From: a virus
IMG/VR virus record: IMGVR_UViG_3300043538_000030
Span: 1 to 48,939 of that record
DNA length: 48,939 nucleotides
Reading direction: 5' to 3' (one strand)
Of the stretch, positions 2,789 to 48,939 are shown piece by piece. Made by a program: the position numbers and the translations under genes. The notes beneath the pieces were generated by a model. It was given only the letters and a program-made list of their open reading frames with translations, ran no database searches and had not been told where the DNA came from. Position 1 is the first letter of the stretch. Each line of letters opens with the position of its first letter.

Positions 2789-3201
2789 TGCGCTGGGATC
2801 AGCTGCTGCCGCCCTGGATTGCGCTGCTCGAGGACGACGGCGAGTTGGTGGCGTCGTTGGGCGGCTCGCATATCTATCCGGCGCAAGCATCACGAGCCGT
2901 TGTCATCCCGAGTATTGAATACCAGATGATCAGCGATCGCGAGGCGGAACTCTTCGGCACGATCGCGCTGCAGGTCGACTATTGGGCGCGGGGAATCGCC
3001 AAAGCCGGGGAGATCGAGCGACGCCTGCGGACGCTTCTCCACCACGACGTGGCGTTCGTCCTCGGCGGCGAGCGACTCTGGTCCCGGTACGTGGACAGTC
3101 GCACGCTGAGTTACCCGGCCGATCCTGGTGTGCTCCATCGAGCGCTGGATTTCGAGATCGAAGCAGCCCGCGGCAAATACGTTCCCCTAGAGGAGTCCTG
3201 A
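2788..3201 (+). CDS. Tail terminator protein (DUF3168/gpU-like)
   Basis: The protein has 137 residues with the pattern of tail terminators: LLPPWIALLEDDGELVASLGG at the start, a central Y-P-A strand, then a beta-rich domain ending in a paired-strand region (LDFEIEA). It should form the ring that stops tail-tube polymerisation. It lies just before the tail-tube gene. GTG start shares one base with the upstream TAG. An AGAGGAG ribosome-binding site for the next gene lies at its 3' end. Confidence 0.6.
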   Translation: MRWDQLLPPWIALLEDDGELVASLGGSHIYPAQASRAVVIPSIEYQMISDREAELFGTIALQVDYWARGIAKAGEIERRLRTLLHHDVAFVLGGERLWSRYVDSRTLSYPADPGVLHRALDFEIEAARGKYVPLEES

Positions 3202-3202
3202 C

Positions 3203-3868: not shown

Positions 3869-3871
3869 TCG

Positions 3872-4525
3872 ATGATCATCAAGCCCTTCGCGGAACTGGA
3901 GGCGTACGCCCACGCGGAATACGTGCGGAAATACGCCTCCATTCCGAGGCCGAATGTCGTCAACATCGACGCCGTGCTCGCCTTCGGGCAGCCGCGCGTC
4001 TTTCAGCTCGGCGGGGTCGGCTATCGGGCACCCCCGCTGTCCTTTCGTTTGGGCTTTCACTGCCTGGTCGTGGCCAACCTGCTGCGGGATGCCACCGCCG
4101 CCGGGCAGTCGACGATAGAACCGATTCGCGTGGCGCGCCGCCTGCTCCTGCAGGCGGCGTTTCCCGTGTCCCGATGGATGCGCTGGTTCGGTCGACGCAT
4201 TGCGAAGGCCCCAGCCGCAGACATTGAGCCGGCGCTCTGGTGGCTGCTCCATGTTCCCGATGCGTTGCCCCCGGCGCCCCCCACACAACAGGTCACCGTC
4301 GACTGGTCGGATCAACTCGCCCAGTTCGCCCGCGCGTTCCCTTGCTGGGCCGGATCGGATGGATTCCCGCTTTCATGGCATCACTACGTCGTCGGCATGC
4401 GGCATCTCAGTCGCGCCACGGCTCGGGAAGATGTGCGTCGTGCCGTCGCGGGGAGAATCGCCGGGGCAGACGTCAAGGAGTGGAAATCATGGAAAGCGGA
4501 ACTCAACGCCGCGGCGGGGTGGTAG
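3872..4525 (+). CDS. Probable tail assembly chaperone
   Basis: The protein has 217 residues. It has a short beta-rich start (FGQPRVFQLGGVGYRAPPLSFR), then a mostly helical body. It is the only gene between the tail-tube and the tape-measure genes, the place of the tail assembly chaperones (lambda gpG/gpGT) that coat the tape-measure protein. I see no second frame-shifted partner and no convincing slippery heptamer near the end, so if it is the chaperone it may act as a single product. The call is positional. Confidence 0.45.
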   Translation: MIIKPFAELEAYAHAEYVRKYASIPRPNVVNIDAVLAFGQPRVFQLGGVGYRAPPLSFRLGFHCLVVANLLRDATAAGQSTIEPIRVARRLLLQAAFPVSRWMRWFGRRIAKAPAADIEPALWWLLHVPDALPPAPPTQQVTVDWSDQLAQFARAFPCWAGSDGFPLSWHHYVVGMRHLSRATAREDVRRAVAGRIAGADVKEWKSWKAELNAAAGW

Positions 4526-12808: not shown

Positions 12809-13317
12809 TCGCCATCACCAGTCCGAGCGGGCTCGGACTCATCCACCAGGCCGAGCAGTGCCGGCTGGTGGCCTACCTCGATACCGGCGGCATCCCGACG
12901 ATCGGATGGGGGACCACGCGCTATCCGACGAATGCCAGAGTGGCCCTCGGCGATCGCTGCACCCAGGCGCAGGCCGATACCTGGTTTGCTCGGGATCTGC
13001 AGTGGACGGAACGCGCGGTCGACCTGCTCTCGACGGACCTGTTGCTGCCGCGGCAATTCGATGCACTGGTCAGCTTCACCTACAACGAGGGTGAAGGCGC
13101 CTACCGACGCTCGCAGCTGCGCCAGAAGGTGAATGCCGATCCGAACGATCCGAGTATCCGCGCCGAATTCATGAAGTGGTATTTCGTCGGTCCCGCGCCG
13201 GTGTTGGGCTTGTGGCGCCGTCGGCATGCCGAGGCCGACCACTACTTCAATGTTGCCACGCTCTGTCCCGTGTTTCCGCCTGACGTCGCCTCACCCCAGC
13301 CGCCTGTGGCGGCGTAA
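12805..13317 (+). CDS. Endolysin, GH24 lysozyme
   Basis: The protein has 170 residues. It shows the GH24 (T4/P22-type) catalytic pattern: E17, then D26 and T32 in the spacing E-8-D-5-T, inside AEQCRLVAYLDTGGIPTIGWG. A second conserved part follows (QFDALVSFTYNEG). It cuts the glycan backbone of peptidoglycan at the end of infection. There is no signal peptide and no cell-wall binding domain, so it needs a holin for export and points to a Gram-negative host. The last 20 residues are Pro-rich. Confidence 0.92.
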   Translation: MIAITSPSGLGLIHQAEQCRLVAYLDTGGIPTIGWGTTRYPTNARVALGDRCTQAQADTWFARDLQWTERAVDLLSTDLLLPRQFDALVSFTYNEGEGAYRRSQLRQKVNADPNDPSIRAEFMKWYFVGPAPVLGLWRRRHAEADHYFNVATLCPVFPPDVASPQPPVAA

Positions 13318-13329
13318 CCCGGAGCCTCT

Positions 13330-13605
13330 GTGAACCCGTTCAGCAAGCTGACATCGATCATCGGATACATCCTGACCCTGCTGCAGGGCGCCACGCATGA
13401 CAGCATCGTCGCATTCCTGACGACCGGCTTTCTGCATCTGAGTGCGCCGCTCGCGAGTGTCCTCGCCTATGTCGCTCTGGCCGCGACTGGAGCCGTGAGC
13501 CTGTTCGGTCACGCGGTGAATGGCAACGGGCCGCCGACACCGGCGACCAACACGGACATCAATCAGCCGATCGCGGCGCCGGCTATCGCGGCAGCCAAGT
13601 CCTGA
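13330..13605 (+). CDS. Candidate holin
   Basis: The protein has 91 residues, starting at GTG after GGAGCC. It has two hydrophobic stretches (about 8-19 and 38-60) and a polar, Pro/Ala-rich tail. Size, membrane segments and position just after the endolysin fit a holin, but neighbouring membrane proteins (12437, 13700, 17176, 17886) are rivals for that role. Confidence 0.5.
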   Translation: MNPFSKLTSIIGYILTLLQGATHDSIVAFLTTGFLHLSAPLASVLAYVALAATGAVSLFGHAVNGNGPPTPATNTDINQPIAAPAIAAAKS

Positions 13606-13703: not shown

Positions 13704-13801
13704 AGACGTGGATGTGGGTCGTCCTGGCCGTCGTGGTCGTGGTGCTCGTGCTCGCCGCGATCGCGGCGTTCGGAATCGTTCACCAGATGGAGAGTATCTG
13801 A
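13700..13801 (+). CDS. 33-residue single-span membrane peptide
   Basis: The product MKTWMWVVLAVVVVVLVLAA is followed by 13 more residues: one strongly hydrophobic helix with a short polar tail. Its TGA shares one base with the ATG of the lipoprotein gene (TGATG), suggesting translational coupling. Could be a small holin or a regulator of lysis. Confidence 0.5.
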   Translation: MKTWMWVVLAVVVVVLVLAAIAAFGIVHQMESI

Positions 13802-16533
13802 TGCGTCGCCTCGCGCTCGTCGCCCTGCTCGCTGCCTGTACCGCGCCACCGAAGGCCGCCGTGCCTGACAGCGCGGTCGCGGTGACGCCGCCGATCGAGG
13901 CCATGAAGAAGCCAGCTCCTCCGCCACCGGCTCCAGCACCGACGACGATCAACAACTGGTGCGTGCCGGGGCCGATCACGTGGATCTGCTCGACCACGAA
14001 GCCGACAACGATGCCCGCGCCGATTCACGACACGGTCCCGCCGACACGTCTGGCCTATTGCGTGCCGTCGAGTTCGTCGGCCGATGGCTGGTTCTGCTCC
14101 TCCACGAAGCCCGCACCACCGCCGGTGGTCACGCCGCCTCCACCACCGCCCGTCGTACCTCCGCCGCCACCGCCCCCACCACCGGTTGTGCCGCCGGCGC
14201 CGCCTCCCGCGCCGCCGGCCCCTCCGCCTGCGCCACCACCGGTCGCAACATTCCCCTACGAGCTGTCGATCTACCCCGGGAGTTGCACCTGCAACGTCGA
14301 TACGTCGCAAGTCGCCGGGTACGCGATCTGGGAGGTCACGAACCCGGACGGCGGTTCCTACACCGTCCAGGTGAAGGTTCGCTCGACGCAGCCATGGCTG
14401 GTGCTCGATTCATCGCATGTCTACCAGGGCAACGATCGCGGGATCAATTGGACGATCCGGCCGGCCGGTCTCATCACGGGCACCTATCTCGACACAGTCT
14501 CGGTAACGCCGGTCAATCCGGCGACTGCCGCGCCCATCACGTTTGTCGTGACGCTGCGGGTCGGAGTGATCGCGCCGCCGGCACCGCCCCCGCCGCCTCC
14601 CGGAGCACCTCCGCCGGTCCTGGCACCGCTTCCGCCCACCGTGGTCAACCTGGTGCACGGCATCGGCGATCCGATGTTCATCGTGACGCCGGCGCGTCGC
14701 GCCGTGTGGGTGAACATGAAGTCCACAAATCACTTCCTCTATAAGCTCGCCGAGAATGTGTGCAGTGCGACCGGCACGCCAGGTGAGCGGTATGGTGACG
14801 ACGGATTCGCCTGCGCCTGGGTCGCGCAGGTGGACAGCAGCCCTGCGGCTGCGCAGAAGACGATTGCCAAGCTGGAGCAATACGGGAGCGGCACAAAGGG
14901 CAACGACGCGGTCCGCGCGACGCTGGTACCGGCTGCGATCATGACGGACTGGGTGTGGCATTGGGCAGACTCGACCCAGCGGGATTCTCTCTATTCCGGG
15001 ATCCAGAGCTGGACGCGGCTGGCACTCGGCAAGGGCACGCCGATGTACGTCGGCGGCTGTCGCACCAGCGACGCAGACCAGGGGACGCTCGGCTGCTTCT
15101 TCGGCCCGACGCTGGTCGACCTGCTCTTCCGCGGCCGGCCCGATGCCCCGCGCTGGCTCGACTCGAGCATGACCACCGGCGGCTTCACCCCGGTGCTGGT
15201 CGGCGGACTCACGTCGACGGATACGATGAACTCGACGGCGCGGAACGAAGTCACGTTCTTCATGCAGACGAAGTCGCGCGGCGGCCAGGAGGTCGAATCC
15301 ACCGACTACAATCCGGGGACGTCGGCCGTCTGGCTGCTCGGGGTCGAGGCGCTGAAAACGGCACTCGGAACCAATCCGATTCCGGAAGCCGATCGGTATT
15401 TCAGTGACTACGCGAAGTGGTTGCCGTTCGAGTTCACGCCGGACATGAACCAGACGGTCGAGTGGGGGGATACGGAACACCCGCACGACGTCTCTACCTG
15501 GCTCTATCGGCGCATCGACATGTTGATGGGCTTGACCGGCACCACGCGCGAATGCACCACGCAGGCCACCCTGCAGGCGCTGTGGGCGAAGTTCGGCAAG
15601 GTCGGCTACGGCTCCGCCGAGCCGATGTACGACGCGATCCATGCACTGGCCTTCTACGATCCGGCGGTGCCGGCGTGCGCGATGCCGACCGGCACCTGGT
15701 ACAACAGCGGCCGCGGTCATCTCACGATCAAGGATGCGACGACGAGCGTCTCGATCGAGGCGCAGCCACCGACCGACGAGGATCATCAGGTCCGCTACTG
15801 GACCAACGTCACGATGTATCGCAACGGCGAGTGGGTGCTCGACCATCCCTACGGCTACGGTGGCGACGCGGTCGGACCGCTGGCCACGAACGGCGTCAGC
15901 TACCGCGGGTTCGGCGCGATGGCCCAGAAGGGTGTTACTCGAGTCGATAGTGGCGCCGGATGGTGGGCCGTCACCGGCAGCACGGGCGGCGAGCTTGGCG
16001 GCTGCACCTACAACTGTCCGGCGCCGTTCCTCACGTTCGGACAGCGCAGCACGCTCTACACCACCGTCAACGGCTGGAGCGTCGTCGCCACCTTCGATAC
16101 CGTAGCCCTGGTCGATCCGGGTGACCTCACGCAGTACCGCGCCGACAGCGCGACGCTGCTCGCGAATCCGGGCTGGTTTTCGGTGTGGCATCCAAACGTC
16201 GTACCGACGCGCACCCCGACGGGATGGACCTGGACGACTGCCGGTGGCCAGACCGTGCAGCTCTCGGCATTCGGCGCGAACATCGCCGGCACCGTCTATG
16301 ACGAATACGCGCAGCTCTGGCCGGATCCGCCGCCGCCGGCGAAGCGCTCCTCTGGGATCCCGGTGCCATATACGCTCGCACAGCAGCTGCGCGTGGCCAC
16401 CATTGGCCCGACCCTCCTGCAGGTCGTGCTGATCGGCACCGGCACGCCGCCGGCGGTCACGCGGACGGCGGGCGGAGTGCAGGTCGGATCCAAGCTCATC
16501 GCGCTGACCGCCGGCTTCGCGGGCGTGCAGTAG
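13801..16533 (+). CDS. Giant proline-rich putative lipoprotein with BACON-like and possible lyase-like regions
   Basis: The product has 910 residues. The N-terminus MRRLALVALLAAC carries an LAAC lipobox at C13, so it may be lipidated; 12 residues before Cys is short for a signal peptide. Two related Cys motifs follow (CVP...WICSTTKP near 54-68, CVP...WFCSSTKP near 87-104), then a poly-Pro stretch (about 105-148). Residues 153-256 look like a BACON-type beta domain (PWLVLDSS ... GTYLDTVSVTPV). A second Pro linker (258-280) leads to a C-terminal domain of about 630 residues. Its helical first half and later part (EDHQVRYWTNVTMYRNGEWV) recall heparinase II/III-like polysaccharide lyases, but weakly. 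The GGAG at 13788-13791 supports this start over an earlier in-frame ATG at 13708, which would overlap the membrane peptide gene. Confidence 0.6.
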   Translation: MRRLALVALLAACTAPPKAAVPDSAVAVTPPIEAMKKPAPPPPAPAPTTINNWCVPGPITWICSTTKPTTMPAPIHDTVPPTRLAYCVPSSSSADGWFCSSTKPAPPPVVTPPPPPPVVPPPPPPPPPVVPPAPPPAPPAPPPAPPPVATFPYELSIYPGSCTCNVDTSQVAGYAIWEVTNPDGGSYTVQVKVRSTQPWLVLDSSHVYQGNDRGINWTIRPAGLITGTYLDTVSVTPVNPATAAPITFVVTLRVGVIAPPAPPPPPPGAPPPVLAPLPPTVVNLVHGIGDPMFIVTPARRAVWVNMKSTNHFLYKLAENVCSATGTPGERYGDDGFACAWVAQVDSSPAAAQKTIAKLEQYGSGTKGNDAVRATLVPAAIMTDWVWHWADSTQRDSLYSGIQSWTRLALGKGTPMYVGGCRTSDADQGTLGCFFGPTLVDLLFRGRPDAPRWLDSSMTTGGFTPVLVGGLTSTDTMNSTARNEVTFFMQTKSRGGQEVESTDYNPGTSAVWLLGVEALKTALGTNPIPEADRYFSDYAKWLPFEFTPDMNQTVEWGDTEHPHDVSTWLYRRIDMLMGLTGTTRECTTQATLQALWAKFGKVGYGSAEPMYDAIHALAFYDPAVPACAMPTGTWYNSGRGHLTIKDATTSVSIEAQPPTDEDHQVRYWTNVTMYRNGEWVLDHPYGYGGDAVGPLATNGVSYRGFGAMAQKGVTRVDSGAGWWAVTGSTGGELGGCTYNCPAPFLTFGQRSTLYTTVNGWSVVATFDTVALVDPGDLTQYRADSATLLANPGWFSVWHPNVVPTRTPTGWTWTTAGGQTVQLSAFGANIAGTVYDEYAQLWPDPPPPAKRSSGIPVPYTLAQQLRVATIGPTLLQVVLIGTGTPPAVTRTAGGVQVGSKLIALTAGFAGVQ

Positions 16534-24315: not shown

Positions 24316-25227
24316 ATGTCTGAGACCACGATGCAGCTACCGACGTCGCCGAAGTTCCGGCGCCCGCTCCCCGAGGGCCTACGCCTCAGCGTGGGGAAGC
24401 ATGGGACCTGCAAGGATGGGCTCTGTTTCAACGAGGCCGTCGACTTCGTGATGGTCGCCGACTTGGCCGTGAAGGAATGGCGGGCGTACCGCCCGACCGA
24501 CCATCCGAAGGATGTCCCACCGAGCATCAATCGATTCACCATGCGGCTCAACGACTATTGGTCGGATGACGACCGGCAGCTGCTGGTGCAGTACATCCCG
24601 AAGGTCGTCGGATTGTCGCAGTCGGACGCCGACGAACAGACGCGCCGGTACCTCGCCCTCGACTGGTGCTATCGCACCGCGGTGCCCGCTGCGTTTCGCC
24701 TCGCGAAGCTCGACGCGTACGCGGAGCGCCTGGCGATCATCGCCCCGATCGTCGATCAGGCCAGCTGGAGTCTCGCGTGGCCGGTGATGAACGGTCTCTA
24801 TGAAGAGACGCGGGCGCGGCGCACCGCCTGGCGCGAGGATCTGCGTAAGCAGATCCGAGCGGCGGCGGCGGAGGTGGTGGCGGTGGTGGCGGCGGAGGTG
24901 GCGGTGGAGGCGGAGGAGGTGGCGGCGGAGGTGGCGGCGGTGGAAATTATTTCGCGAACCCTCGCTGGCGCGGCCAGCAAGGGTTCGCTCTGGCCGGCGC
25001 CCATCGTTGAGATCGTACGCGCGGGCCTGGCAACACTCCCGAAGGATCCGTCGTACGGTCAGGTCCAGAAAGCCGTCTACGGCCCGGTGCGCGACAAGAT
25101 GCGCGAGCTGCTCACCGCCGCCGCAGGCCCAGACTACGTCGCGTATCGCCGCACCATGCGAGACGGCGCGCTCGATCTCCTCGATCGGATGATCGCGGTC
25201 GGGCAGCGCGAAGGCGTCGCCGCATGA
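24316..25227 (+). CDS. Phage/bacterial conserved protein of unknown function with Ala/Val/Glu linker
   Basis: The product has 303 residues. The N-terminal domain (about 15-165) has a pattern I recognise from many hypothetical proteins of GC-rich bacteria: CxxGLCxNEAVxF, then DHPxxxxPSINRF, LND and YIPKVVGLS. Function unknown. Residues about 178-207 are an Ala/Val/Glu low-complexity linker encoded by GNG codons; the same DNA read one frame over gives about 28 glycines (see findings). The C-terminal domain (about 210-303) is helical. Lies between Sak4-like and ParB-like genes. Confidence 0.55.
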   Translation: MSETTMQLPTSPKFRRPLPEGLRLSVGKHGTCKDGLCFNEAVDFVMVADLAVKEWRAYRPTDHPKDVPPSINRFTMRLNDYWSDDDRQLLVQYIPKVVGLSQSDADEQTRRYLALDWCYRTAVPAAFRLAKLDAYAERLAIIAPIVDQASWSLAWPVMNGLYEETRARRTAWREDLRKQIRAAAAEVVAVVAAEVAVEAEEVAAEVAAVEIISRTLAGAASKGSLWPAPIVEIVRAGLATLPKDPSYGQVQKAVYGPVRDKMRELLTAAAGPDYVAYRRTMRDGALDLLDRMIAVGQREGVAA

Positions 25228-26804
25228 CCTCTATCATCGCCCGCCCATCGCTGCAGGAGATTCCACTCCGCTTTCTGATTGAGTCCGAGCACAACCCGCG
25301 GACACGGTTCGATCCAACGGAGCTCGCCGAGATGGCGGAGTCGTTGCGCCAGAGCGGCCAGCTCAACGCGATCCTCGTCCGGCCGCATCCCGAGAAGCCG
25401 GGCTGCTTTGAGATTGCGGCGGGCGCCTGCCGTCGCCGCGCCGCCGAGCTGGCCGGCCTCTCGCATCTGACCGCGGTCGTGCGCGAGCTCGACGACGCGA
25501 CGTTCGTCGAGTTCGTCAACGTCGAGAACCGCCAGCGCAACAATCTCGAGGCCCTGGACGAGGCCCGCGGCTTCGCCGACTGGATGAAGACGGCCGGGCT
25601 CAAGATCCCGGACATCGCCGCCCGCATCGGCCTCTCGGAGAAATACGTCTACGACCGGCTCAAGCTGCTGCAGCTGATCAAGCCGGCGCAGAAGCTCCTG
25701 GCCGATCGGATCATCACGGCCGGGCACGCGATCCTCCTGGCCCGTTTGTCGAAGGCCGATCAGGAGCGCGCGATCGGCGACACGGATGGACGATGGGGGA
25801 AGGTCGAAGGACTGTTCACCACCGATTACGGCCGCACCGATGCCGAGCTCGAGCTGGCGGACGATGGACCGCGGAAGCCGGTCAGCGTCAGGGAATTCTC
25901 GAAGTGGATCGACGACCACGTCCGCTTCGTGCCGGAGCGCGAGGATCTGCCGAACCTCTTTCCGGAGACCGCCGTCGCCTTGGCAGCGGCGAAGGACGAG
26001 AAGTCCAAGGTCGTGATGATCACCCGCGACTATCGCGTCCAGAATGATGCGAAGGACGAGAAGCACCGCACCTACGGCAATGCCAGCTGGCAGAGGGCCG
26101 ACGGCGATTCGTACGAAGACGAGGGTACTGGCAAATGGATGCAGAGCAAGCCCTGCGAGTACTCCGTCATCGGCGTGGTTGCCGCGGGCCCAGGCCGGGG
26201 TGAGGCGTTCCCGGTCTGCGTGAACAAGGACAAGTGCGCCGTGCACTGGGGCACCGAGAAGCGGCAGCGCGCGAAAGCGGCGACACAGCGGACATCTCCC
26301 GATCCGAAGGCCCGGGAGAAACAGGCTGCGACCGACGCGCGCGAAGCCGCCAAGCGGAAAGAGGCGGAACGGGAGTCGGCCCGGTGGAAGAAGGCCATTC
26401 CGGCGCTGCGCGACGCGGCGATCGCGGCGCTCAAGTCGGCAGCGGCTGGGCCGACGTCGCCGGCCGCCGTCCTCGTCCTACATGTGATCCAGCTGTCCTT
26501 CCGCCGCAAGAGCGGCAACCTCAAGCTGGCCGACTTCGGTACCGGGCCGGAATCGGTCATTCGGCTCGCGGCACTGCGAGCGCTCGAGGAGGACGCGCTC
26601 GACGAATGGCGCGCAGAGCACACCGCGCCGGAGATGCTGAAACCATTCGGGATCGACGCCCAGTCCATTGTCGACCAGGCGGTGCCGAAGGAGAAGCCGG
26701 CGCCGGCGAAGGTGCAGACGTCTGCAAAGAAGAACGGCAAGAAGAAGCTCGCCGGCGACGTCCGCCGTGCCGAGGCGAAGAAGAAAGCAAAGACCAGCCG
26801 ATGA
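25224..26804 (+). CDS. ParB-like nuclease-domain/DNA-binding protein
   Basis: The product has 526 residues. The N-terminal domain has the ParB pattern: IPLRFLIESEHNPRTRFDPT, then the box FEIAAGACRRRAAELAG (about 62-78) and ENRQRNNLEALDEARG (about 100-115). A helix-turn-helix follows (IPDIAARIGLSEKYVYDRLK, about 127-147). The middle and C-terminal parts are unlike chromosomal ParB and end in a Lys-rich tail. Possible jobs: plasmid-like maintenance, or control of replication or transcription. There is no ParA gene in the window, which argues against a classical partition pair. Confidence 0.8.
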   Translation: MTSIIARPSLQEIPLRFLIESEHNPRTRFDPTELAEMAESLRQSGQLNAILVRPHPEKPGCFEIAAGACRRRAAELAGLSHLTAVVRELDDATFVEFVNVENRQRNNLEALDEARGFADWMKTAGLKIPDIAARIGLSEKYVYDRLKLLQLIKPAQKLLADRIITAGHAILLARLSKADQERAIGDTDGRWGKVEGLFTTDYGRTDAELELADDGPRKPVSVREFSKWIDDHVRFVPEREDLPNLFPETAVALAAAKDEKSKVVMITRDYRVQNDAKDEKHRTYGNASWQRADGDSYEDEGTGKWMQSKPCEYSVIGVVAAGPGRGEAFPVCVNKDKCAVHWGTEKRQRAKAATQRTSPDPKAREKQAATDAREAAKRKEAERESARWKKAIPALRDAAIAALKSAAAGPTSPAAVLVLHVIQLSFRRKSGNLKLADFGTGPESVIRLAALRALEEDALDEWRAEHTAPEMLKPFGIDAQSIVDQAVPKEKPAPAKVQTSAKKNGKKKLAGDVRRAEAKKKAKTSR

Positions 26805-30192: not shown

Positions 30193-30356
30193 CCGCGCGC
30201 CCGGCGCGGTCTGCCCCGCCTTCGAAGGGCCTTGAGGTCCGAGCGGTCGCGAGCGCCGAGCCTTTGCCCGACCTCGATCGCTGGCTGGCGCTGTATGTTG
30301 CAGCCTTCGCTCGCCTCGAGGGCATTCCAGTGCCATCCACCGATCGCGCCGCCTGA
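30189..30356 (+). CDS. 55-residue unknown protein
   Basis: ATG overlaps the previous stop; its TGA shares one base with the integrase ATG (TGATG), so the integrase may be translationally coupled to it. Sequence (DLDRWLALYVAAFARLEG) is a short amphipathic helix. No family recognised. Confidence 0.45.
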   Translation: MTARPARSAPPSKGLEVRAVASAEPLPDLDRWLALYVAAFARLEGIPVPSTDRAA

Positions 30357-32062
30357 TGTACGACACGCTGGCCTACCTCCGGGTCTCCGATCCGCGCCAG
30401 GCGACGCCCGACAAGGTGAGCCTCGAGGATCAGCGGCTCGCGCTCGAGCAGCTGGCGACCTCCCTCGGTCGTACGCTCCCCGCTGACGCGATCTTCGCCG
30501 ATCCGGGCGTCAGTGGGGGCACGGCGAATCGGCCCGGCTTCCAGCGGTTGCTCGCGCACTGCTTGGCGCATCCGACGAAAGGCGGCCTCGTCCTCGTCTT
30601 CCGGCATGATCGCTGGGGACGCTTCGATGATCCCGACGAGGCCGGGCACTACACCTTTCTCGTCCGCCAATGCGGCTACGATGTGCGCTTCGCCGAAGGC
30701 AGTTCGACGGATCCGAATGTGCGATCCATTCTCGACGCGCTACAGCGCACCTCCGCCATGCAGGAACGGCAGAAGATCCAGTCGCGCGCGAAGACCGGCA
30801 TGCGCGGTGCTACAGCCAAGGGCTTCTGGGTGAATCGCGAACCCTACGGCTACCGGCGGGTCGCGATCGACGCGCTCTCCGGTGCCACGCGCGTGCTCGC
30901 GCCAGGGCAACGCAAGGGACAGAACGAAGTCCTGAAACTCACGCCGGGCCCGGACGAGGAAGTGGCCTTCGTGCGCTGGTTGTTCGGGCGGTATGCCACC
31001 GGGACCGCGAGCGTCACGGAACTCCATCGGCAGACCAGCACGCAGACGGCGCACCGATTCCATTGGAGTGCCCTGCTGCACATGCTCCGCAATCCGGTCT
31101 ACGCCGGCGATCTTCGCAGCGGATTCAAGGCGAAGCAGGTCGTCCTCGTCCGCGACGCGTTTCCCGCGCTGGTCGATCGCGACCTCTGGGACCAGGTGCA
31201 ACGGTGTCTCGCGCGGAATCGCAAGCATACCTCCCCCGTGCGATACGCCTATCCGCTCTCCGGGCTGCTGCATTGTGCGAGTTGCGGTGCGCCATTCGTG
31301 GGCGGCGGCCGCACCGGGAAACATCCCGCGGATCATCCGCAGGCGCAATTCTTCTACAAGGACGCCGGCTATACGAAGCAGCCACGGTGTCCGGGTCACC
31401 TCATGACCATCCAGCGGCGAGACATCGAGCCGCGCATCATCGGCGCCGTCGCGGATGCCATGGAACGCCACCAGCTCGGTGCACGTCTGGCGGTCGCGTT
31501 CGATCGACTCCTGGATCAGGGCGATCGTGCCGCGGCCGATCGACGCGCACGTGCCGTGCGCACGCGCCGGCAGCTGGAAGCGCGCCGTGATCGCCTGGTA
31601 GCTGCCGTCGGAGACGGCACGCTGCTCAAGGCCGAAGCCGACCCGCAACTGCGCACGGTGCGCGCGGACCTCGATCGCCTGACGCGGGAACTGGAGCAGC
31701 ACCGCTTCGATGGCCGGCGCCAGGCGCGCCTCGCGACGGAGCGCGATCGTCTCGTTGCCCTGGCCATGGACTTCCGTGCGCAGGCCGCTCGCCTCGAGGG
31801 CAATGAACTCCGCGAGCTGTTGCGGCCGTGGATCGCGTCCGGGCTCGTCGATAAGCACGCGCGCACCGTGACGATCGCGCTGCGCACCATTCCCGTCGAT
31901 TGCAGCTCGCTCGGCTCGGCGGGCCCAGCAGAGGAAGCTGAAACACTCCCTCCAATAGTCCTCTCCCTCAACAACCGCTCGGCAGCCTGCCGCGCCCGCG
32001 AAGCCCGCAAACGGGCTGCGCGAGCCGCGCTGGGTCACGCCCCACGGAGAAAGAGCGCCTGA
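30356..32062 (+). CDS. int: Large serine recombinase (phage integrase)
   Basis: The product has 568 residues. N-terminal resolvase domain: YLRVSDPRQ with catalytic S11 and R9, later LVLVFRHDRWGR (about 77-90). Recombinase domain in the middle (EPYGYRRV; ALLHMLRNPVYAGDL; about 160-260), then a zinc-ribbon domain (LHCASCGAPFVG ... CPGHLM, about 308-345) and a long coiled coil (about 375-470). This is the standard architecture of large serine integrases, which recombine attP and attB without a tRNA-type core. It shows that the phage is temperate. It needs no host factor but a small directionality factor for excision; several tiny neighbours could do that. Confidence 0.93.
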   Translation: MYDTLAYLRVSDPRQATPDKVSLEDQRLALEQLATSLGRTLPADAIFADPGVSGGTANRPGFQRLLAHCLAHPTKGGLVLVFRHDRWGRFDDPDEAGHYTFLVRQCGYDVRFAEGSSTDPNVRSILDALQRTSAMQERQKIQSRAKTGMRGATAKGFWVNREPYGYRRVAIDALSGATRVLAPGQRKGQNEVLKLTPGPDEEVAFVRWLFGRYATGTASVTELHRQTSTQTAHRFHWSALLHMLRNPVYAGDLRSGFKAKQVVLVRDAFPALVDRDLWDQVQRCLARNRKHTSPVRYAYPLSGLLHCASCGAPFVGGGRTGKHPADHPQAQFFYKDAGYTKQPRCPGHLMTIQRRDIEPRIIGAVADAMERHQLGARLAVAFDRLLDQGDRAAADRRARAVRTRRQLEARRDRLVAAVGDGTLLKAEADPQLRTVRADLDRLTRELEQHRFDGRRQARLATERDRLVALAMDFRAQAARLEGNELRELLRPWIASGLVDKHARTVTIALRTIPVDCSSLGSAGPAEEAETLPPIVLSLNNRSAACRAREARKRAARAALGHAPRRKSA

Positions 32063-32528: not shown

Positions 32529-32551
32529 GCTGAGCGAAGCGGAACTGGTTT

Positions 32552-32625
32552 CGCGGGGTAGAGCAGCCCGGTAGCTCGCCAGGCTCATAACCTGGAGGTC
32601 GTGGGTTCAAATCCCACCCCCGCAA
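32552..32625 (+). tRNA. tRNA-Met, initiator type (CAT anticodon)
   Basis: A complete 74-base cloverleaf. Acceptor stem 32552-32558/32618-32624 has a C1-A72 mismatch, the hallmark of bacterial initiator tRNA. D stem 32561-32564/32574-32577 has A11:T24, also initiator-specific. Anticodon stem 32579-32583/32591-32595 keeps two of the three initiator G-C pairs (G30:C40, G31:C39) with A29:T41 in place of G29:C41. Anticodon CAT is at 32586-32588 in loop CTCATAA. T stem 32601-32605/32613-32617 is perfect. Discriminator A at 32625; CCA is not encoded. It lies 490 bases after the integrase. Confidence 0.93.
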
Positions 32626-32641
32626 TCACCAAGGAGAAGGC

Positions 32642-38056: not shown

Positions 38057-38578
38057 GTGGCAAATTGGCCTCGGCCCGGAAGCGTACAGGAGCCGCAGCT
38101 GCCGAAGATCCCCAAACCGCCTGAACTGCGCCAGCGGCGCAATCGGTCGAGCACATCGGCGCAGCTGCCGAGCGAGGCCGCCTCGGCGCGCCGAAAAGTG
38201 CCCCCGTTGCCGAAACGCGAGGAGCTGACGGAGGTCTGGCACCCGAAGGTGATCGAGTGGTGGCGCGCCGTCTGGAAATCACCGATGGCCGGCGAGTATC
38301 TGGGCGCGGACATGAAGGGCGGCCTCTACCTCCTGGCCGAGTTGATGCAGCGGCGCTGGACCGAGAAGGATACGGCCAGCCTAGTCCGGATCGCCTCGGA
38401 GATCCGGCAGCAGGAGATCCGGTTCGGGCTCTCGCCCATCGATCGCCGCCGGCTGCAGTGGGAAGTCGAGAAGGCGGAGGAAGCCGAGGAACGGACGCAG
38501 AAGCGGCGGAAATCGAAGCGTCTTGACCGGATCGCTACCAAAGACCCGCGCGATGTCCTGAAAGTCGTGGGGAAGTGA
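38057..38578 (+). CDS. terS: Terminase small subunit
   Basis: The product has 173 residues from a GTG. The pattern PKPPELRQRR ... WHPKVIEWWRAVWKSPMAGE (about 61-80), then LAELMQRRWTEK and a charged coiled coil, is typical of small terminases in phages of GC-rich hosts. It recognises the packaging site and recruits the large subunit. The start is tentative, as there is no clear ribosome-binding site; the TGA overlaps the next GTG. Confidence 0.75.
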   Translation: MANWPRPGSVQEPQLPKIPKPPELRQRRNRSSTSAQLPSEAASARRKVPPLPKREELTEVWHPKVIEWWRAVWKSPMAGEYLGADMKGGLYLLAELMQRRWTEKDTASLVRIASEIRQQEIRFGLSPIDRRRLQWEVEKAEEAEERTQKRRKSKRLDRIATKDPRDVLKVVGK

Positions 38579-43205: not shown

Positions 43206-44450
43206 ATGAAGCCCGCCCTCCGTGAGAAGCTCGACGCCTTCAAGACCAAGCAGACCGAACTCGCCAACATCATGGAGCTCGCCAAGGATGGCGATCGCTT
43301 CGACCTGAGCCGGCCCAAGGTCCTCGAAGGGCTCGGCGCCGCCGATCGCGCCGACGCGCTCGACAAGGTCAAGGCCCGCAACCGCGAGCTCGATGACTTG
43401 GGCTCCGAGCTGGAACAGGCCGAGCTCCGCGAGGTGAAGGATTCCGCCCGCGAGCGTGAGGATGCGCGGAACGCCCCGACGCGCGGTGGCACCGCGCTCG
43501 TGTCTGTCACCGACGAGCGCGAGACGCTCGGTACCCGCTGGACGAAGAGCGCGGCGTATCAGGCATACAAGAAGAACGGTTCGTTCGGCATCACCGCTTC
43601 GGTCGACATGGGCCTCAAGACGCTCTTCCAGACCTCGGCTGGCTTCCCGCCGGAATCGATCCGGTCGGGACTGATCGTGCCCAAGGCCGATCTGAGCCTG
43701 GCCGAGATCCTCGATCTCGTCCCGGCATTCCCGCTCGCCCAGCCGGCCTTCGTGTACATGGAGGAAACGGTCCGGGTACACGCGGCCGCCGAAACCGCCG
43801 AAGGCCAGACGTATCCCGAGAGCACGTTCGAGTATGCGCAGAAGAACAGCCCGGCACAGAAGATCGGTGACTCGCTGCCGGTGACCGACGAGCAGCTCGA
43901 GGACGAAGGGACGATGGCGAGCCTGCTGGATCAGCGGCTGCGGTACGGCGTGCGGAAGCGCCTGGCCAGCCAGATCATGGCTGGCAACGGCGTCGGGACC
44001 AACCTGCGCGGTGTGCTCAACACGGGCGGCATCCAGACCCAGGCCAAGGGCGGCGACAGCACGATGGCCGCGGCCTTCAAGGCGCTGACGAAGGTGCGCT
44101 TCACCGGCGATGCCGAGCCGAGCGCGTTCGTCTTCCATCCGAACGACTGGCAGGACGTGATCCTCGCCCAGGAAACGACCGGCGCCTTCATTTGGGGCCA
44201 CCCGGCATTCGCGCCGCTGACCCGGCTCTGGGGCCTAGCCGTCGCCGTGTCGACGGGCATCACGGAGAACACCGGCCTCGTCGGCGACTTCCCGAACTTC
44301 AGCCGTCTCGACGAGAAGCGCGGGATCGAGGTCCAGATCGGGTTCGTGGCCGATCAGTTCAAGCAGGGACAGAAGACGATCCGCGCCGATGTGCGCACGG
44401 CGTTCACCGTGTTGCGCCCGGCCGCCTTCTGCACCATCACCGGGATCTGA
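43206..44450 (+). CDS. Major capsid protein (HK97 fold)
   Basis: The product has 414 residues, with a strong ribosome-binding site (AAGGGAG). The N-terminal 95 residues are a charged coiled coil (delta domain, removed by the protease). The mature part has the HK97 pattern: RSGLIVPKADLSLAEILDLV, EGQTYPESTFEYAQK, SLPVTDEQLEDEGTMASLLD, NGVGTNLRGVLNTGGIQTQ, AFVFHPNDWQDVIL and VQIGFVADQFKQGQKTIRAD. It builds the icosahedral shell. Confidence 0.95.
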   Translation: MKPALREKLDAFKTKQTELANIMELAKDGDRFDLSRPKVLEGLGAADRADALDKVKARNRELDDLGSELEQAELREVKDSAREREDARNAPTRGGTALVSVTDERETLGTRWTKSAAYQAYKKNGSFGITASVDMGLKTLFQTSAGFPPESIRSGLIVPKADLSLAEILDLVPAFPLAQPAFVYMEETVRVHAAAETAEGQTYPESTFEYAQKNSPAQKIGDSLPVTDEQLEDEGTMASLLDQRLRYGVRKRLASQIMAGNGVGTNLRGVLNTGGIQTQAKGGDSTMAAAFKALTKVRFTGDAEPSAFVFHPNDWQDVILAQETTGAFIWGHPAFAPLTRLWGLAVAVSTGITENTGLVGDFPNFSRLDEKRGIEVQIGFVADQFKQGQKTIRADVRTAFTVLRPAAFCTITGI

Positions 44451-44509: not shown

Positions 44510-44731
44510 ATGGCAACGATCGAGCGGGGCAACATCATCGACGCGGCATCTGGGGCCTTCGCCGAATTCACCAAGGCGGGCGCCCTGGCGAACGGAGATC
44601 TCAACGGCGTCGCCGAGAAGGGCACGCTGGCGCGGGACACGACCGACGGCGGGCTCTATCAGAACACCGGCACGAAGGCCGCGACGATCTGGACGCGGCT
44701 GGCGACGGTGGACGACCTCGAATCGTCCTGA
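44510..44731 (+). CDS. Small capsid-associated protein
   Basis: The protein has 73 residues with a good ribosome-binding site (GAGGAGCGG). Beta-rich, with GGLYQNTGTKAATIWTRLAT, a motif seen in short strand-hairpin units of phage virion proteins. Directly after the capsid gene, so a decoration or head protein is likely. Its last base overlaps the next ATG. Confidence 0.5.
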   Translation: MATIERGNIIDAASGAFAEFTKAGALANGDLNGVAEKGTLARDTTDGGLYQNTGTKAATIWTRLATVDDLESS

Positions 44732-45144
44732 TGGGGCTCACGGTGCTGACGGGGCAGCCGGCGCTCGGATCGCTCGTCGCTGATCGCCGGTTGTACGAGA
44801 ATGCCAACGGCGTGCCGGTCGAGGACGGAGATCCGGGAGCCGCGTACCTGCTCGCCACCCCCGGCGAGGTGCTTCCACCGGCCACAGTCAAGCGCCTGGG
44901 ACTCCGGCTCGACGCCGAAAGCCGGGTGCGATGGGGAGCCGAGGCGGCCACCGCAGCTCCGGCGGCTCCGGCGGCAGAAACGGCGTCGCTCGTCGCCCTG
45001 CCTGGTGGGTGGTACCAGTGTCGCGAGTCCGATGGCACGCTGCGCAGCGAGAACGGTGAGCCCATGAAGGTCCGCGGAAAGGCCGCGGCCCTAGTCCATT
45101 TTGGTCTGCGCGAGGCAGGCCCTTCCGAGGAGCACGACCCATGA
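44731..45144 (+). CDS. Unknown head-region protein
   Basis: The protein has 137 residues. Two small beta regions are joined by an Ala/Pro-rich stretch (EAATAAPAAPAAETA, about 71-85). The second part (GGWYQCRESDGTLRSENGEP then MKVRGKAAAL) looks like a small substrate-contact domain but is not identified. Position suggests head completion or decoration. Confidence 0.45.
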   Translation: MGLTVLTGQPALGSLVADRRLYENANGVPVEDGDPGAAYLLATPGEVLPPATVKRLGLRLDAESRVRWGAEAATAAPAAPAAETASLVALPGGWYQCRESDGTLRSENGEPMKVRGKAAALVHFGLREAGPSEEHDP

Positions 45145-45395
45145 TCATCGGCGCCCATTTTCCCTGCACGGAATTCAGCACGGCGGGCAAGGCCGCGACC
45201 GTGGCGATTCCGGTTCCCGGCATCCGCACCGGGGATCAGCTGCTCTATGTGATCCTGCACAACGCTGCCACGGGCTTGCTCGAGCCCAAGGATCCGTCGG
45301 ACTTCGTCGTGGCGAACGACACGATCACGTCCGCCTCGGTGAACACGTCGACCGGCTTTGTCAGCGGCGCCTTCACCCCGACGCACGACGCCTAA
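45141..45395 (+). CDS. Small head-region beta protein
   Basis: The protein has 84 residues, beta-rich and Thr/Val/Ala-rich (GKAATVAIPVPGIRTGDQLL; FVVANDTITSASVNTSTGFV), a plan usual for capsid or tail decoration proteins. ATG overlaps the previous stop. It is the last head gene before the sugar cassette. Confidence 0.45.
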   Translation: MIIGAHFPCTEFSTAGKAATVAIPVPGIRTGDQLLYVILHNAATGLLEPKDPSDFVVANDTITSASVNTSTGFVSGAFTPTHDA

Positions 45396-45448: not shown

Positions 45449-46126
45449 ATGCAACGCGCCCGCGAGGTTCGCACCGGATACGATCGGCACGACCCGGAGC
45501 ATCGCGCGATGGCTCTCACCGGCGGGTGCACGCGGGACACCGATCGTTGCGCCGACGCCCGAGATTACCAGGTCGACCTTCGTGAGTGCTGCCGCGGGCA
45601 CCTGCGCCAGCTCATGGTCAACGCGGTCGCGGCCCTGCGTGCCGCCGGCATCACGTTCTGGCTGGACTACGGCAGCCTGCTCGGCGCCGTGCGGAATCCC
45701 CTCCTCGGTTTACCAGCCGGCCTCATCCCCCATGACAAAGACGTCGACCTCGGCATCTTCGGCTGCGGCTTCGAGGCAATGCGTCGCGTGCAGCAGCAGG
45801 TCGAGCAGCAGGGCCACCAGGTGCTGCTGCGTCCGATGGGCCGCTCCCTCAAGGTCCGGCTCTCCGCGCGTAATCATACCAACCTCGATCTGTTTCTCTG
45901 GCGCGAGCGGGCGGACGGCAAGCTGCACCGCGACCGGTATATCGCCGTCGACGATTTCAAGGGGCGCGAATTTCCGAAGACCGCGCTCTTCCCGTTGACG
46001 ACGGTCGAGTGGGAAGGCATGTCGCTGCCAGCGCCGCGCGATCCCGCCGCGTTCTGTGCGTTCCGATACGGCCCCGACTGGATGACGCCCATTCGCGCGA
46101 ATAACGATGGCCAGAGGCGCCCGTGA
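45449..46126 (+). CDS. LicD-like phospho-ligand transferase, first gene of the glycan cassette
   Basis: The product has 225 residues from ATG 45449. The pattern ITFWLDYGSLLGAVRN (75-80 as GSLLGA) and IPHDKDVDLGIF (HDKDVD, 95-100) is the nucleotidyltransferase-fold signature of LicD/fukutin-type proteins, which move phosphocholine, phosphoethanolamine or sugar-phosphate onto glycans. D97/D100 and nearby residues would bind the metal. An upstream part with several Cys (1-55) has no known role. The stop overlaps the next GTG. No choline genes are present, so the ligand is unknown. Confidence 0.7.
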   Translation: MQRAREVRTGYDRHDPEHRAMALTGGCTRDTDRCADARDYQVDLRECCRGHLRQLMVNAVAALRAAGITFWLDYGSLLGAVRNPLLGLPAGLIPHDKDVDLGIFGCGFEAMRRVQQQVEQQGHQVLLRPMGRSLKVRLSARNHTNLDLFLWRERADGKLHRDRYIAVDDFKGREFPKTALFPLTTVEWEGMSLPAPRDPAAFCAFRYGPDWMTPIRANNDGQRRP

Positions 46127-47136
46127 GGCTCTTCCTCACCTGCCCGACCTTCGCCGCGCATGGCGGGATCCGCGTCATCCTCGAGTGGGCCAACCGCCTC
46201 AGCCGGCGCGGGCACCTCGTCTACCTCCGCGCCGACGACCGCCGCGGCTGCGGGTGGTTCGCCATCGATCCATCGGTCCGGATCGAGCACACGGACCGGA
46301 TGCTCGCGCGGTGCGACGCCTTGGTGGTGACCTCGCCGCACGCCGTCGATTACTTGAGCCGGGCGGAGGCGCCGGCGCGCCGCTTCGCCTTCATGCAGAT
46401 GGCCGAGCACCTCTTCCGCCCACGGGATCGGCGCTGGCAGCGCCAGTGCCAAGCGTTCTACCTGACGCCGGCGCCGCTGCTCCTGATCAGCCGATGGAAC
46501 TGGGACATGGTGCGCCAGGCCGGCCGTCGCAGTCCGGTGCACTATCTCAGCAATGCGGTGAATCTCGACGACTTCCCGCTGGAGACCACCGCGAAGGATG
46601 GCCGCACCGTCCTGGTCGAGGGCTGGCTGCCGGACAACCCGACGAAGGACTGGAACCGGATCGCGGCGAAGGTCGCATCGCGGCTCGCCCGCGATGGCTA
46701 CCGTGTCACCGCCTACGGTCGGCATCCACTGCCGCCGGAGGATCGCTACCGGTCCGTCCCAGCTCGCTATGTCGCACAGCCCACCCTGGAGCAACTCAAC
46801 GCACTCTACCGCGACGCCACCATCCTGGTCAAAGCCTCGCACTGCGACGCGCGGGCGTGCGCGCCGATGGAAGCGATGACCAAAGGCACCGTCACGGCGC
46901 GGGCGATCGACTACGGCGACGACGATCTCGTCCACGAAGTGAACTGCCTCCGCTGCCCGTATGACGAGAAGGCGCTCTATCTGGCCGCGCTGCGGCTGCT
47001 GCAGAATGTGTCGCTCCGCGAACAGCTCGCCGAGCGCGGCCGCGCCCATGTGGCCGACGCGACGTGGGATGATATTCTCGACCAGGTCGAAGGCATACTC
47101 GGCGCCGGCGCGCCGCTGCTGGAGATGTCGGCATGA
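46123..47136 (+). CDS. GT-B fold glycosyltransferase (GT4-like), first of the cassette
   Basis: The product has 337 residues from GTG. Start: RLFLTCPTFAAHGGIRVILE, with the GG loop of GT4 enzymes, then donor-site region LVKASHCDARACAPMEAMTK, matching the E-x-M-x-x-G acceptor of the nucleotide-sugar phosphate, and a closing helix. It should add a sugar from a nucleotide donor. Start chosen at GTGA overlap. Close in type to the gene at 18-1010 but not an obvious recent duplicate. Confidence 0.75.
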   Translation: MRLFLTCPTFAAHGGIRVILEWANRLSRRGHLVYLRADDRRGCGWFAIDPSVRIEHTDRMLARCDALVVTSPHAVDYLSRAEAPARRFAFMQMAEHLFRPRDRRWQRQCQAFYLTPAPLLLISRWNWDMVRQAGRRSPVHYLSNAVNLDDFPLETTAKDGRTVLVEGWLPDNPTKDWNRIAAKVASRLARDGYRVTAYGRHPLPPEDRYRSVPARYVAQPTLEQLNALYRDATILVKASHCDARACAPMEAMTKGTVTARAIDYGDDDLVHEVNCLRCPYDEKALYLAALRLLQNVSLREQLAERGRAHVADATWDDILDQVEGILGAGAPLLEMSA

Positions 47137-47771
47137 TCCCGGTCGCGATTGTCGCGGTGGCCTACCTGGAGCCTGAGTACCGCGCCGTGCGCGAGGCGAT
47201 CACCCGATGCAACGTGCCGGTGGTCTACGTCGACCGCCAGGGCGTCGGCAGCCTCGCGGCGGCCTACAACAACGGCGCGCGGCAGGCCGATGCCCTGCAG
47301 CCGGAGTTCCTCTGGTTCGTGTCGAATGTCGGATTCGGCCCGACGATGCTGCCGCGGTTGCTCGGCGCCATCGCCACCCGCGCCGACTTCGCGGCCATCC
47401 ATCCCGCCTTCGCCAGCGATCATCTCGCCTGCCAGCCGGACGGATCCGGCGCCGTCAAGGCGGTGCCCTTCCTCGAGTTCACCTGCCCGCTCGTTCGCGC
47501 CGCGGTGTTTCGTCGCTATCCGCTCGACGAGCGGATGCCGTATTGGGGTCATGATCTCGATTGGGGCCATCGGGTCCGAGCGGCCGGATGGAAAATCGGC
47601 GTCGATCACGGCGCGCCGGCGATCGAGCACGCCTATATCCGACACGCCGATCGCAGACACCCGATCACGCGACGTCGCCACCAACTCCGGAAGGCGGCGA
47701 ACGCGTCGACGACAGACGCGCTCGTGTCGCTCTACGGCCCCGACTGGCGGAGGGCGCTCGGATGGCTCTGA
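47133..47771 (+). CDS. GT-A fold glycosyltransferase (GT2-like)
   Basis: The product has 212 residues. Start PVAIVAVAYLEPEYRAVREA, then GSLAAAYNNGARQA (the N-x-G loop of GT2 enzymes) and PYWGHDLDWGHRVRAAGWKI, the ED-like region with GHDLDWG. A standard DxD is not evident (FVSNVG lies at its place), so metal binding may differ. Overlaps neighbours by 4 and 10 bases. Confidence 0.7.
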   Translation: MIPVAIVAVAYLEPEYRAVREAITRCNVPVVYVDRQGVGSLAAAYNNGARQADALQPEFLWFVSNVGFGPTMLPRLLGAIATRADFAAIHPAFASDHLACQPDGSGAVKAVPFLEFTCPLVRAAVFRRYPLDERMPYWGHDLDWGHRVRAAGWKIGVDHGAPAIEHAYIRHADRRHPITRRRHQLRKAANASTTDALVSLYGPDWRRALGWL

Positions 47772-48406
47772 ACGCGATGGACCGGGCCGCGGTCGATCAT
47801 GAGGTGGGATTCTGGAAGGGTTTCGTCCAGACGCCGCGGTTCCTTGACGGCTGGCTCTCGCGCACGCCGACGCCTGAGCTGCAGCCGATCGTGCGCGACT
47901 TCCTGCTGCATCGGCCGCTGGCACTCGTCCTCGATGTCGGTTCCGGCGTCGTGAGCCTGCTGACCGGGACCGTGCCGCGCGCGCTGCTGGTGGCCACGGA
48001 TCCGCTGAGCGAGTGCTATGCGCAGATCTTCGATTACGCCGCGCACGACCAGCCGGCGCCGTTTCCGATCGCCGCCGAGGATCTCATCTACACGCGGGCG
48101 TTCGACGTCGTGCACATGAGCAATGCGCTCGACCACAGCCAGGATCCGGCGCTCGCGTTGGACCGGCTCCGGGCGGCCGCGCGACCAGGCGGCTGGGTCA
48201 TCGTGCAGGGATTCGAGATGGAATCGACCGCGATGGGCGGCGCCGGGCTGCATCAGTGGGATCTTGCGCTCGACGACAACGCCTTGGTGCTCTCCAATCC
48301 CGCGTCAGGTTCGCGCGTGGACCTGGGCACGGCCGACGAGGCCCACACCGTGACGCTGCCTGACGGCCGCCGCTGGCTCATCTGGATCCAGCAGAGGCCG
48401 GCATGA
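47762..48406 (+). CDS. SAM-dependent methyltransferase (class I)
   Basis: The product has 214 residues from ATG 47762 (10-base overlap with the GT-A gene). Motif I ALVLDVGSGVVSLLTG (SAM-binding), then FDVVHMSNALDHSQDPALAL (motif IV-like) and AARPGGWVIVQGFEME. It resembles small methyltransferases of glycan clusters that cap or modify sugars. Substrate unknown. Its stop overlaps the HAD phosphatase ATG. Confidence 0.75.
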   Translation: MALNAMDRAAVDHEVGFWKGFVQTPRFLDGWLSRTPTPELQPIVRDFLLHRPLALVLDVGSGVVSLLTGTVPRALLVATDPLSECYAQIFDYAAHDQPAPFPIAAEDLIYTRAFDVVHMSNALDHSQDPALALDRLRAAARPGGWVIVQGFEMESTAMGGAGLHQWDLALDDNALVLSNPASGSRVDLGTADEAHTVTLPDGRRWLIWIQQRPA

Positions 48407-48837
48407 CGAGTCGCCAGATCTACGTCGACTGCGACGGCGTGCTGACCGACGGCATGCTGACGATCGACCACAAGGGCGAGAAGCTCTTCAAGCGTTTCCA
48501 CACGCGCGACGTGCGCGCGATCCGCGAGCTGGTGGTCCGTGGCTACGAAGTGACGCTGGTGAGCGTCGATGATTGGGGCGGCTTGGCCTGCTTCGCCGAG
48601 AAGGTGGGCGCGGAGGTCATGGTGGCTCGCGACAAGGGCGCTCTGCCGCAGCCCTACGTCGCGATCGGCGACGATGCCTGGGATGTCCCGATGCTCTCGC
48701 GCGCCGAAGCCGCGTTCTGTCCGCTCGACGCCGATCGATCGGTGCTGGATCTGCCAGGGATCGTGGTGCTCAACGCCAAGGGTGGAACCGGTGTCGTCGC
48801 CGCGCTGCTCCGGATCCTGGTCGACGCCGATGACTAG
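48403..48837 (+). CDS. KdsC-like HAD phosphatase
   Basis: The product has 144 residues. HAD motif I DCDGVLTDG (D9, D11), then FKRFHTRDVRAIRELVVRGY, a conserved K near 78, motif III AIGDDAWDVPML (89-94) and the KdsC end (KGGTGVVAALL). KdsC removes phosphate from Kdo-8-P; related enzymes act on other nonulosonates or hexose phosphates. It is shorter than bacterial KdsC (about 170-190). With the nucleotidyltransferase (1007) it may prepare an activated sugar. Its end overlaps the glycosyltransferase start by 8 bases across the join. Confidence 0.75.
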   Translation: MTSRQIYVDCDGVLTDGMLTIDHKGEKLFKRFHTRDVRAIRELVVRGYEVTLVSVDDWGGLACFAEKVGAEVMVARDKGALPQPYVAIGDDAWDVPMLSRAEAAFCPLDADRSVLDLPGIVVLNAKGGTGVVAALLRILVDADD

Positions 48838-48939
48838 AATCGCTGTCCTCGGTTATCGGCTGTCCGGGGTGCGCTCTGGCGCACACCGGACGCATCTCGA
48901 GCTGGGCGGCTTCCTGGCCGAACGCGGACACGCCGTGAC
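48813..48939. repeat. Right copy of 127-bp terminal repeat (includes start of the GT gene)
   Basis: Exact copy of bases 1-127. Bases 48830-48939 are the first 110 bases of the glycosyltransferase gene whose full copy is at 18-1010; this second copy is not a separate truncated gene but the assembly overlap of a circular genome. Confidence 0.95.

Follow-up and report, generated by a model that had tools for sequence, protein, structure and literature searches.

A putative modular glycan cassette among the virion genes of uncultured tailed phages

The capsids and tail tubes of mycobacteriophages are glycosylated by phage enzymes (PMC12363180), and virion glycosylation has been described for Che8, Corndog and Myrna (Freeman et al. 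2023, as cited in PMC12363180 and PMC10877033). A LicD gene in a phage replication module, and a glycosyltransferase gene beside a kinase gene between portal and capsid genes, have both been read as means of modifying the host surface (PMC8008677). Here we analysed IMG/VR virus record IMGVR_UViG_3300043538_000030 (48,939 bases; the whole record is the window in what follows), in which the head genes are separated from the head-tail adaptor gene by seven genes for glycan enzymes. An earlier note on this DNA had proposed that these genes may decorate the virion, or alter the host surface late in infection. We found that the cassette recurs, with exchanged inner genes, in other uncultured phages. 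On balance we favour the reading that it is a modular, phage-borne glycan cassette within a late virion operon, with a virion protein as the likeliest acceptor.

Layout and inheritance of the cassette

All seven genes are on the + strand and run from 45449 across the ends of the record to 1405, in the order LicD, GT-B glycosyltransferase 1 (GT-B1), GT-A glycosyltransferase, methyltransferase (MT), KdsC-like HAD phosphatase, GT-B glycosyltransferase 2 (GT-B2) and nucleotidyltransferase (NT). The record is circular, with a 127-bp direct terminal repeat (1-127, identical to 48813-48939), so that the join is a normal circular closure and the genes across it are contiguous. From LicD to the adaptor gene (1402-2013, + strand), successive genes overlap by 4, 4, 10, 4, 8, 4 and 4 bp, the last value being the overlap of NT with the adaptor; the gene upstream of LicD stops 53 bp before it, without overlap. 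The earlier note had given this position, and overlaps of 4-10 bases reaching into the adaptor gene, and both descriptions stand. To the left are genes for terminase, portal, protease and HK97-type major capsid protein (43206-44450, + strand; phrog_10, 2.5e-28), followed by three small head-region genes (44510-44731, 44731-45144 and 45141-45395, + strand) that are not cassette-specific. To the right, the adaptor (phrog_442, 1e-9) is followed by 2342-2788, the tail terminator and the tail genes. The GC content of the cassette, overall and at third codon positions (GC3; 0.82-0.87 in the cassette), matches that of its flanks. Between 43000 and 48939 the + strand showed neither a promoter-like nor a terminator-like site, which makes a single late transcript plausible; judging from this and from the gene overlaps, the cassette is probably co-transcribed with the virion genes.

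The strongest support for the integrity of the locus came from a second contig, L002 (IMGVR_UViG_3300036830_000277, 60.5 kb). It carries all seven genes in unchanged order, at 61-78% identity, followed by the same adaptor (52% identical), neck and tail genes, with the same NT-adaptor junction. Its terminase is 75% identical to that of the window, and its head is unrelated, with a 651-amino-acid (aa) protease-capsid fusion (phrog_617), a portal of another family (phrog_2271) and a 389-aa portal-associated protein. This combination indicates that the head module was exchanged and that the cassette stayed with the terminase and neck. The ratio of nonsynonymous to synonymous substitution rates (dN/dS) between the window and L002 was 0.17-0.26 for the cassette genes, compared with 0.18 for the terminase and 0.25-0.56 for neck and tail genes, and all seven genes are under purifying selection. 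Synonymous divergence was 0.75-1.4 throughout, with cassette values equal to those of terminase and neck. This uniformity indicates that the cassette has been inherited over the long term together with its neighbours and has been conserved no less strictly than most of them. A tree of the cassette core resolves only the pair of window and L002.

These data bear on the finding that the earlier note had named as fatal to its reading, a chimeric assembly with a bacterial glycan locus, and on the related idea of genes decaying after a chance insertion. Nothing speaks for either except the unusual position. Against them stand the independent L002 contig, which repeats the whole arrangement down to the junction, the purifying selection, the matching GC3 and the partial homologous cassettes found in many contigs. 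We therefore rejected an assembly artefact and give the two ideas together almost no credence.

LicD, NT and the other enzymes

The first gene (45449-46126, + strand) encodes a LicD-family phosphotransferase of 225 aa (Pfam LicD, 3.2e-10), and the only significant match of its profile in the PDB was human FKRP (6kaj, E=2.5e-12). FKRP has a zinc finger formed by Cys289, 296, 317 and 318, an Arg295 that binds the acceptor phosphate, and catalytic aspartates (PMC6965139). The window protein shows the corresponding pattern at C27, R33-C34 and C47-C48, and D96-x-D98-x-D100 and D147 align with the catalytic aspartates. In all nine phage LicDs of this group these aspartates were kept, as was the C-x6-C spacing with an Arg preceding the second Cys and a C-C pair after it. 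By these motifs the window LicD is of the FKRP type: like the human ribitol-phosphate transferase, it has a C4 zinc finger, the Arg before the second Cys, DxDxD and a fourth aspartate. Unlike FKRP, it has no stem domain, the match covering only chain residues 248-436, and its donor and acceptor can be proposed from the family only. A tenth phage LicD, on contig L105, lacks the zinc finger, and its gene lies outside recognised virion genes. A structure prediction for LicD built from only two sequences reached a predicted local distance difference test score (pLDDT) of 35, and the model was not used.

The last gene (1007-1405, + strand) encodes a predicted cytidylyltransferase of the Fom1/TagD type (CTP_transf_like, 1.4e-15). 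Its PDB matches were 5x3d (2e-22), ethanolamine-phosphate cytidylyltransferase and TagD (1coz, 5.5e-13); the entry title of 5x3d is phosphoenolpyruvate phosphomutase, and we take the structure to be the Fom1 phosphonate cytidylyltransferase domain. The HxGH motif (H15-x-G17-H18) is invariant, and the GISTT motif reads YTPGISTT, with Tyr replacing Arg as in Fom1. Homologues of NT at 29-40% identity were found in cyanophages and Streptomyces phages, and others in the marine contigs L069-L077, which gave no LicD match.

Between these two genes lie three glycosyltransferase genes. GT-B1 (46123-47136, + strand) and GT-B2 (18-1010, + strand, with its start repeated at 48830 in the second copy of the repeat) appear to be GT4-type enzymes with intact D/E-x7-E motifs and weak family matches. 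In GT-B1 the motif D242-x7-E250 was invariant across alignment columns, the Pfam match to Glyco_trans_1_4 was below cut-off (0.002), and the profile matched WlaC (4e-5) and the group-1 glycosyltransferase 7ec7 (1e-4) in the PDB. GT-B2 has E241-x7-E249 and a Glyco_trans_1_4 match of 5.7e-5, again below cut-off. It also matches phrog_26352 at 8e-43; this family has no assigned function and, from the GT-B2 assignment, is likely a GT-B glycosyltransferase family. The third gene (47133-47771, + strand), which carries the LDERMPYWGHDLDW signature, had no Pfam match. Its AlphaFold model (pLDDT 85.7) adopts the GT-A fold, and Foldseek placed it nearest to the polypeptide GalNAc-transferase GalNAc-T2 in the PDB (E=2.1e-6; template modelling score, TM, 0.57) and also to a viral GT2 protein (E=1.2e-9). 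On this model the product is a GT-A-fold glycosyltransferase, and a TM of 0.57 to GalNAc-transferases is too weak for its substrate to be named.

The two remaining enzymes are an S-adenosylmethionine-dependent methyltransferase (MT; 47762-48406, + strand; Methyltransf_23, 1.5e-8), of which a 45% identical homologue lies between GT-A and HAD in contig L067, and a KdsC/YrbI-type HAD phosphatase (48403-48837, + strand). The latter aligns with the KdsC structure 1j8d (3.5e-13) and contains DxDGVLTDG, the Lys and GDDxWD; a Pfam scan found no Kdo synthesis partner for it among the cassette genes.

A modular frame and a second lineage

A scan with LicD detected eight phage contigs in addition to L002, seven of which (L098-L104) carry the same LicD type. 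NT was found downstream in six of six carriers whose contig extends far enough (window, L002, L099, L100, L102 and L103); L098, L101 and L104 end before the NT position. The genes in between differ. L099 has a GT2 gene, a nucleotide-sugar transferase-like gene and a TupA-like ATP-grasp gene, and its cassette lies downstream of the adaptor, ahead of the next neck gene. L102 has a methyltransferase and a GT2 before the adaptor, the position also occupied in the window and L002. Three cassettes start directly after the capsid gene: L103 with GT29 (sialyltransferase family), pyruvyl-transferase-like, sulfotransferase and other genes, L101 with LicD fused to GT29, and L104 with a CMP-sugar synthetase-like gene. 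L100 has a pyruvyl-transferase-like gene, just after the terminase. In L098 a GT2 gene follows LicD, the cassette follows the portal genes and the contig ends inside it; as the head of L098 resembles that of L002, the inner genes differ even between close relatives. Altogether, eight of the nine carriers have LicD among their head and neck genes. By this pattern, LicD and NT are the conserved bookends of a modular cassette with variable genes between them.

In L002 (5451-6620) and L098 (6333-7115) the gene directly before LicD encodes a portal-adjacent protein that ends in a carbohydrate-binding-like WxxGxYxxG domain.

Relatives with an empty site were also found. L004, related to the window in terminase (72%), portal (56%), capsid (53%) and adaptor (42%), has only short genes between capsid and adaptor, and none of 58 contigs with a related capsid gave a LicD or NT match.

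Scans with the GT-A alignment detected a second group of carriers, L063-L067 and L082-L084. In these contigs, the stretch between a DUF4054 adaptor and a Neck1-type gene (phrog_222) holds GT-B1, GT-A and HAD, at 42-61% identity to the window, and a Stealth-type phosphotransferase, often with another methyltransferase and a sulfotransferase added. The capsid of this lineage is unrelated to that of the window, and L064:14904-16430, judged from its sequence, may encode a contractile tail sheath. In five contigs with capsids 71-77% identical to this lineage (L087, L090, L091, L092 and L093), the adaptor adjoins the neck with gaps of 0-310 bp and no cassette. Together with L004, these sites (L087 and L091-L093 in particular) uphold the view of the earlier note that this gene order is normally uninterrupted; the comparison with related genomes that it had called for thus yielded both the same insertion, in L002, and intact sites. 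Two fusions, of GT-B1 and GT-A in one 542-aa frame (L084:8996-10622) and of a sulfotransferase and the KdsC-like HAD (L064:11232-12275), suggest that these enzymes work together. In L064, the Stealth gene is separated from the neck gene by an inserted peptidoglycan amidase gene (13009-13443). The cassette core thus sits at the adaptor in two lineages without related structural proteins, with LicD and NT replaced in one of them by Stealth, another class of phosphotransferase. This second lineage, the LicD/NT frame and the FKRP type of LicD had escaped the earlier note.

Proposed pathway, alternative roles and known systems

From the established gene content, order, coupling, conservation, modular exchange and active-site motifs, we infer substrates, an order of reactions, an acceptor and a biological role. 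Known family chemistry and the pairing of NT with LicD suggest that the former makes the donor and the latter uses it. NT would activate a small host phospho-compound, such as the phosphate of glycerol, ribitol, ethanolamine or choline, or a phosphonate, to cytidine diphosphate-X (CDP-X). The inner glycosyltransferases would build a short oligosaccharide, HAD would trim a sugar phosphate, the methyltransferase would cap the glycan, and the FKRP-type LicD would move X-phosphate from CDP-X onto the glycan, which is probably phosphorylated. All steps would be cytosolic and in step with the production of virion parts. By exchanging inner genes, phages could alter the sugar structure, and the glycan might mask the particle or bind it to surfaces.

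Among the seven proteins no transmembrane-like stretch was found (the maximum 19-residue hydropathy, 1.79, was in MT), and a Pfam search of the seven genes found no flippase, polymerase, transporter, initiating or lipid-carrier transferase family. These absences, together with the location in the virion operon, favour an acceptor that is cytosolic and produced simultaneously, as a virion protein would be. The proteins common to the window and L002 are those of neck and tail, which makes a shared neck or tail protein a better candidate than a head protein. The earlier note had pointed to the small head proteins, an idea we rejected for dedicated acceptors: homologues of the first two (44510-44731 and 44731-45144) occur in the cassette-less L003-L006 and L024, and neither was found in the cassette-bearing L002. 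Its broader proposal of virion decoration fared better, being the likeliest role and agreeing with the probable co-transcription, with the role itself still read from the genes. In L102, a 930-aa fibre-like protein with tail-fibre repeats and a CBM5/12-like domain (below the Pfam cut-off) is encoded between NT and the adaptor (2927-5719), overlapping NT by 4 bp; from its position and domains, it is a possible candidate glycan acceptor.

Several observations weigh against decoration of the virion. All carriers are metagenomic contigs, and a virion glycan is proposed from their genes; GT-B1 and GT-A have no biochemically characterised close relative; no single virion protein is tied to the cassette; and in L100 LicD and NT lie just after the terminase, away from capsid and neck genes. 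In addition, because soluble glycosyltransferases are also able to use lipid-linked intermediates at the host membrane, the lack of membrane proteins is only suggestive. This last point leads to the main rival, late modification of the host envelope, in which the enzymes would alter surface polysaccharide during assembly and so block superinfection or keep progeny off debris. Surface polymers of bacteria are the usual targets of LicD and Stealth proteins, and an amidase gene stands beside the L064 cassette. Moreover, the Flandersviridae LicD and a Gratiaviridae glycosyltransferase near a kinase, between portal and major capsid genes, were read in this way (PMC8008677). The cassette itself, however, has no transporter, polymerase, membrane glycosyltransferase, lipid-carrier transferase or transmembrane segment, and late expression alone would not call for the tight link to virion genes seen in two unrelated lineages. 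We regard envelope modification as a serious but rather unlikely explanation.

The same enzymes could instead change the host surface from a prophage. A large serine recombinase (30356-32062), with a tRNA-Met (32551-32627) and a ParB-like protein (25224-26804), suggests that the window phage is temperate. Lysogenic conversion is nevertheless improbable, as the cassette is part of the late operon, its last gene overlaps that of the adaptor, and it lacks a + strand promoter-like site of its own. We attach slightly less weight still to modification of phage DNA or another small molecule: phage glycosyltransferases that act on hypermodified bases exist, but the partners seen here (LicD, Stealth, sulfotransferase, GT29, pyruvyl transferase and TupA) are enzymes that act on polysaccharides or glycans, and no base-hypermodification gene was seen beside them. 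Decoration of a virion protein thus remains our preferred reading. We propose only tentatively its bolder form, in which such loci are exchangeable 'virion serotype' loci of uncultured tailed phages: capsule-locus-like cassettes at the head-neck junction, with a CDP-polyol-forming NT and an FKRP-type LicD, whose phosphodiester-linked glycan coat would be swapped by recombination.

Elsewhere in the window, 13708-16533 encodes a proline-rich 941-aa protein with an apparent lipoprotein signal and no Pfam match. The product of 38057-38578, just upstream of the large terminase gene, matches phrog_226, which is labelled minor tail protein; this label may be wrong, as the position looks like that of a small terminase.

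Isolated phages offered few relatives. Among 50,697 phage records, HAD had a single relative, at 26% identity, and GT-A, GT-B1, LicD and MT had none. A divergent LicD query (from L103) and the major tail protein likewise had no relative in isolates, and two pattern scans of 84,980 genomes for bacterial relatives of GT-B1 and GT-A, which used few short patterns and had low sensitivity, found none. In plasmids, LicD matches reached only 26%, in Shinella. The only isolate relative of GT-B2 was gene 20 of Streptomyces phage TurkishDelight (42% over half the protein), which, like GT-B2, is a glycosyltransferase homologue between capsid and major tail protein genes. It differs in being a single gene with two GT-B2-like stretches, and the LicD/NT cassette is absent from the annotated stretch. 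The gut Flandersviridae also have LicD beside a cytidylyltransferase; theirs lies in a replication module, the cytidylyltransferase is of the IspD type rather than the TagD/Fom1 type, and no glycosyltransferases are mentioned with LicD (PMC8008677).

If particles are indeed decorated, phage surface chemistry would be genetically exchangeable, with a bearing on adsorption, persistence in soil and water, and antibody recognition, and the recurrence of the cassette suggests that custom sugar coats may be a feature of many viruses. The cassette is also a source of minimal sets of soluble enzymes for making phosphodiester-linked glycans and of phage models for FKRP. Bacterial capsule and O-antigen loci have conserved edge genes, type-specific inner genes and the same enzyme classes, and the inner genes of the phage cassette vary as in a bacterial serotype locus. 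The cassette differs in standing among virion genes and in having no export, polymerisation or lipid-linkage genes. As in the mycobacteriophages, the glycosyltransferases are phage-encoded; there, the sources cited above describe modified capsid and tail-tube proteins. Among open-licence papers, phage virion glycosylation is known, and what appears to be new is a modular, phosphodiester-type, multi-enzyme glycan cassette at the head-neck junction. In the few isolates where phage virion glycosylation has been traced to enzymes, these were one or two glycosyltransferases, the number that these sources name for the mycobacteriophages; the window instead encodes a predicted pathway of several enzymes, which includes a nucleotide-activating enzyme and a phosphotransferase of its own and has a recurrent place in the operon and exchangeable inner genes. 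Several unrelated phage groups would thus carry, within the virion operon, a whole pathway with donor activation and a relative of the human muscular-dystrophy enzyme FKRP.

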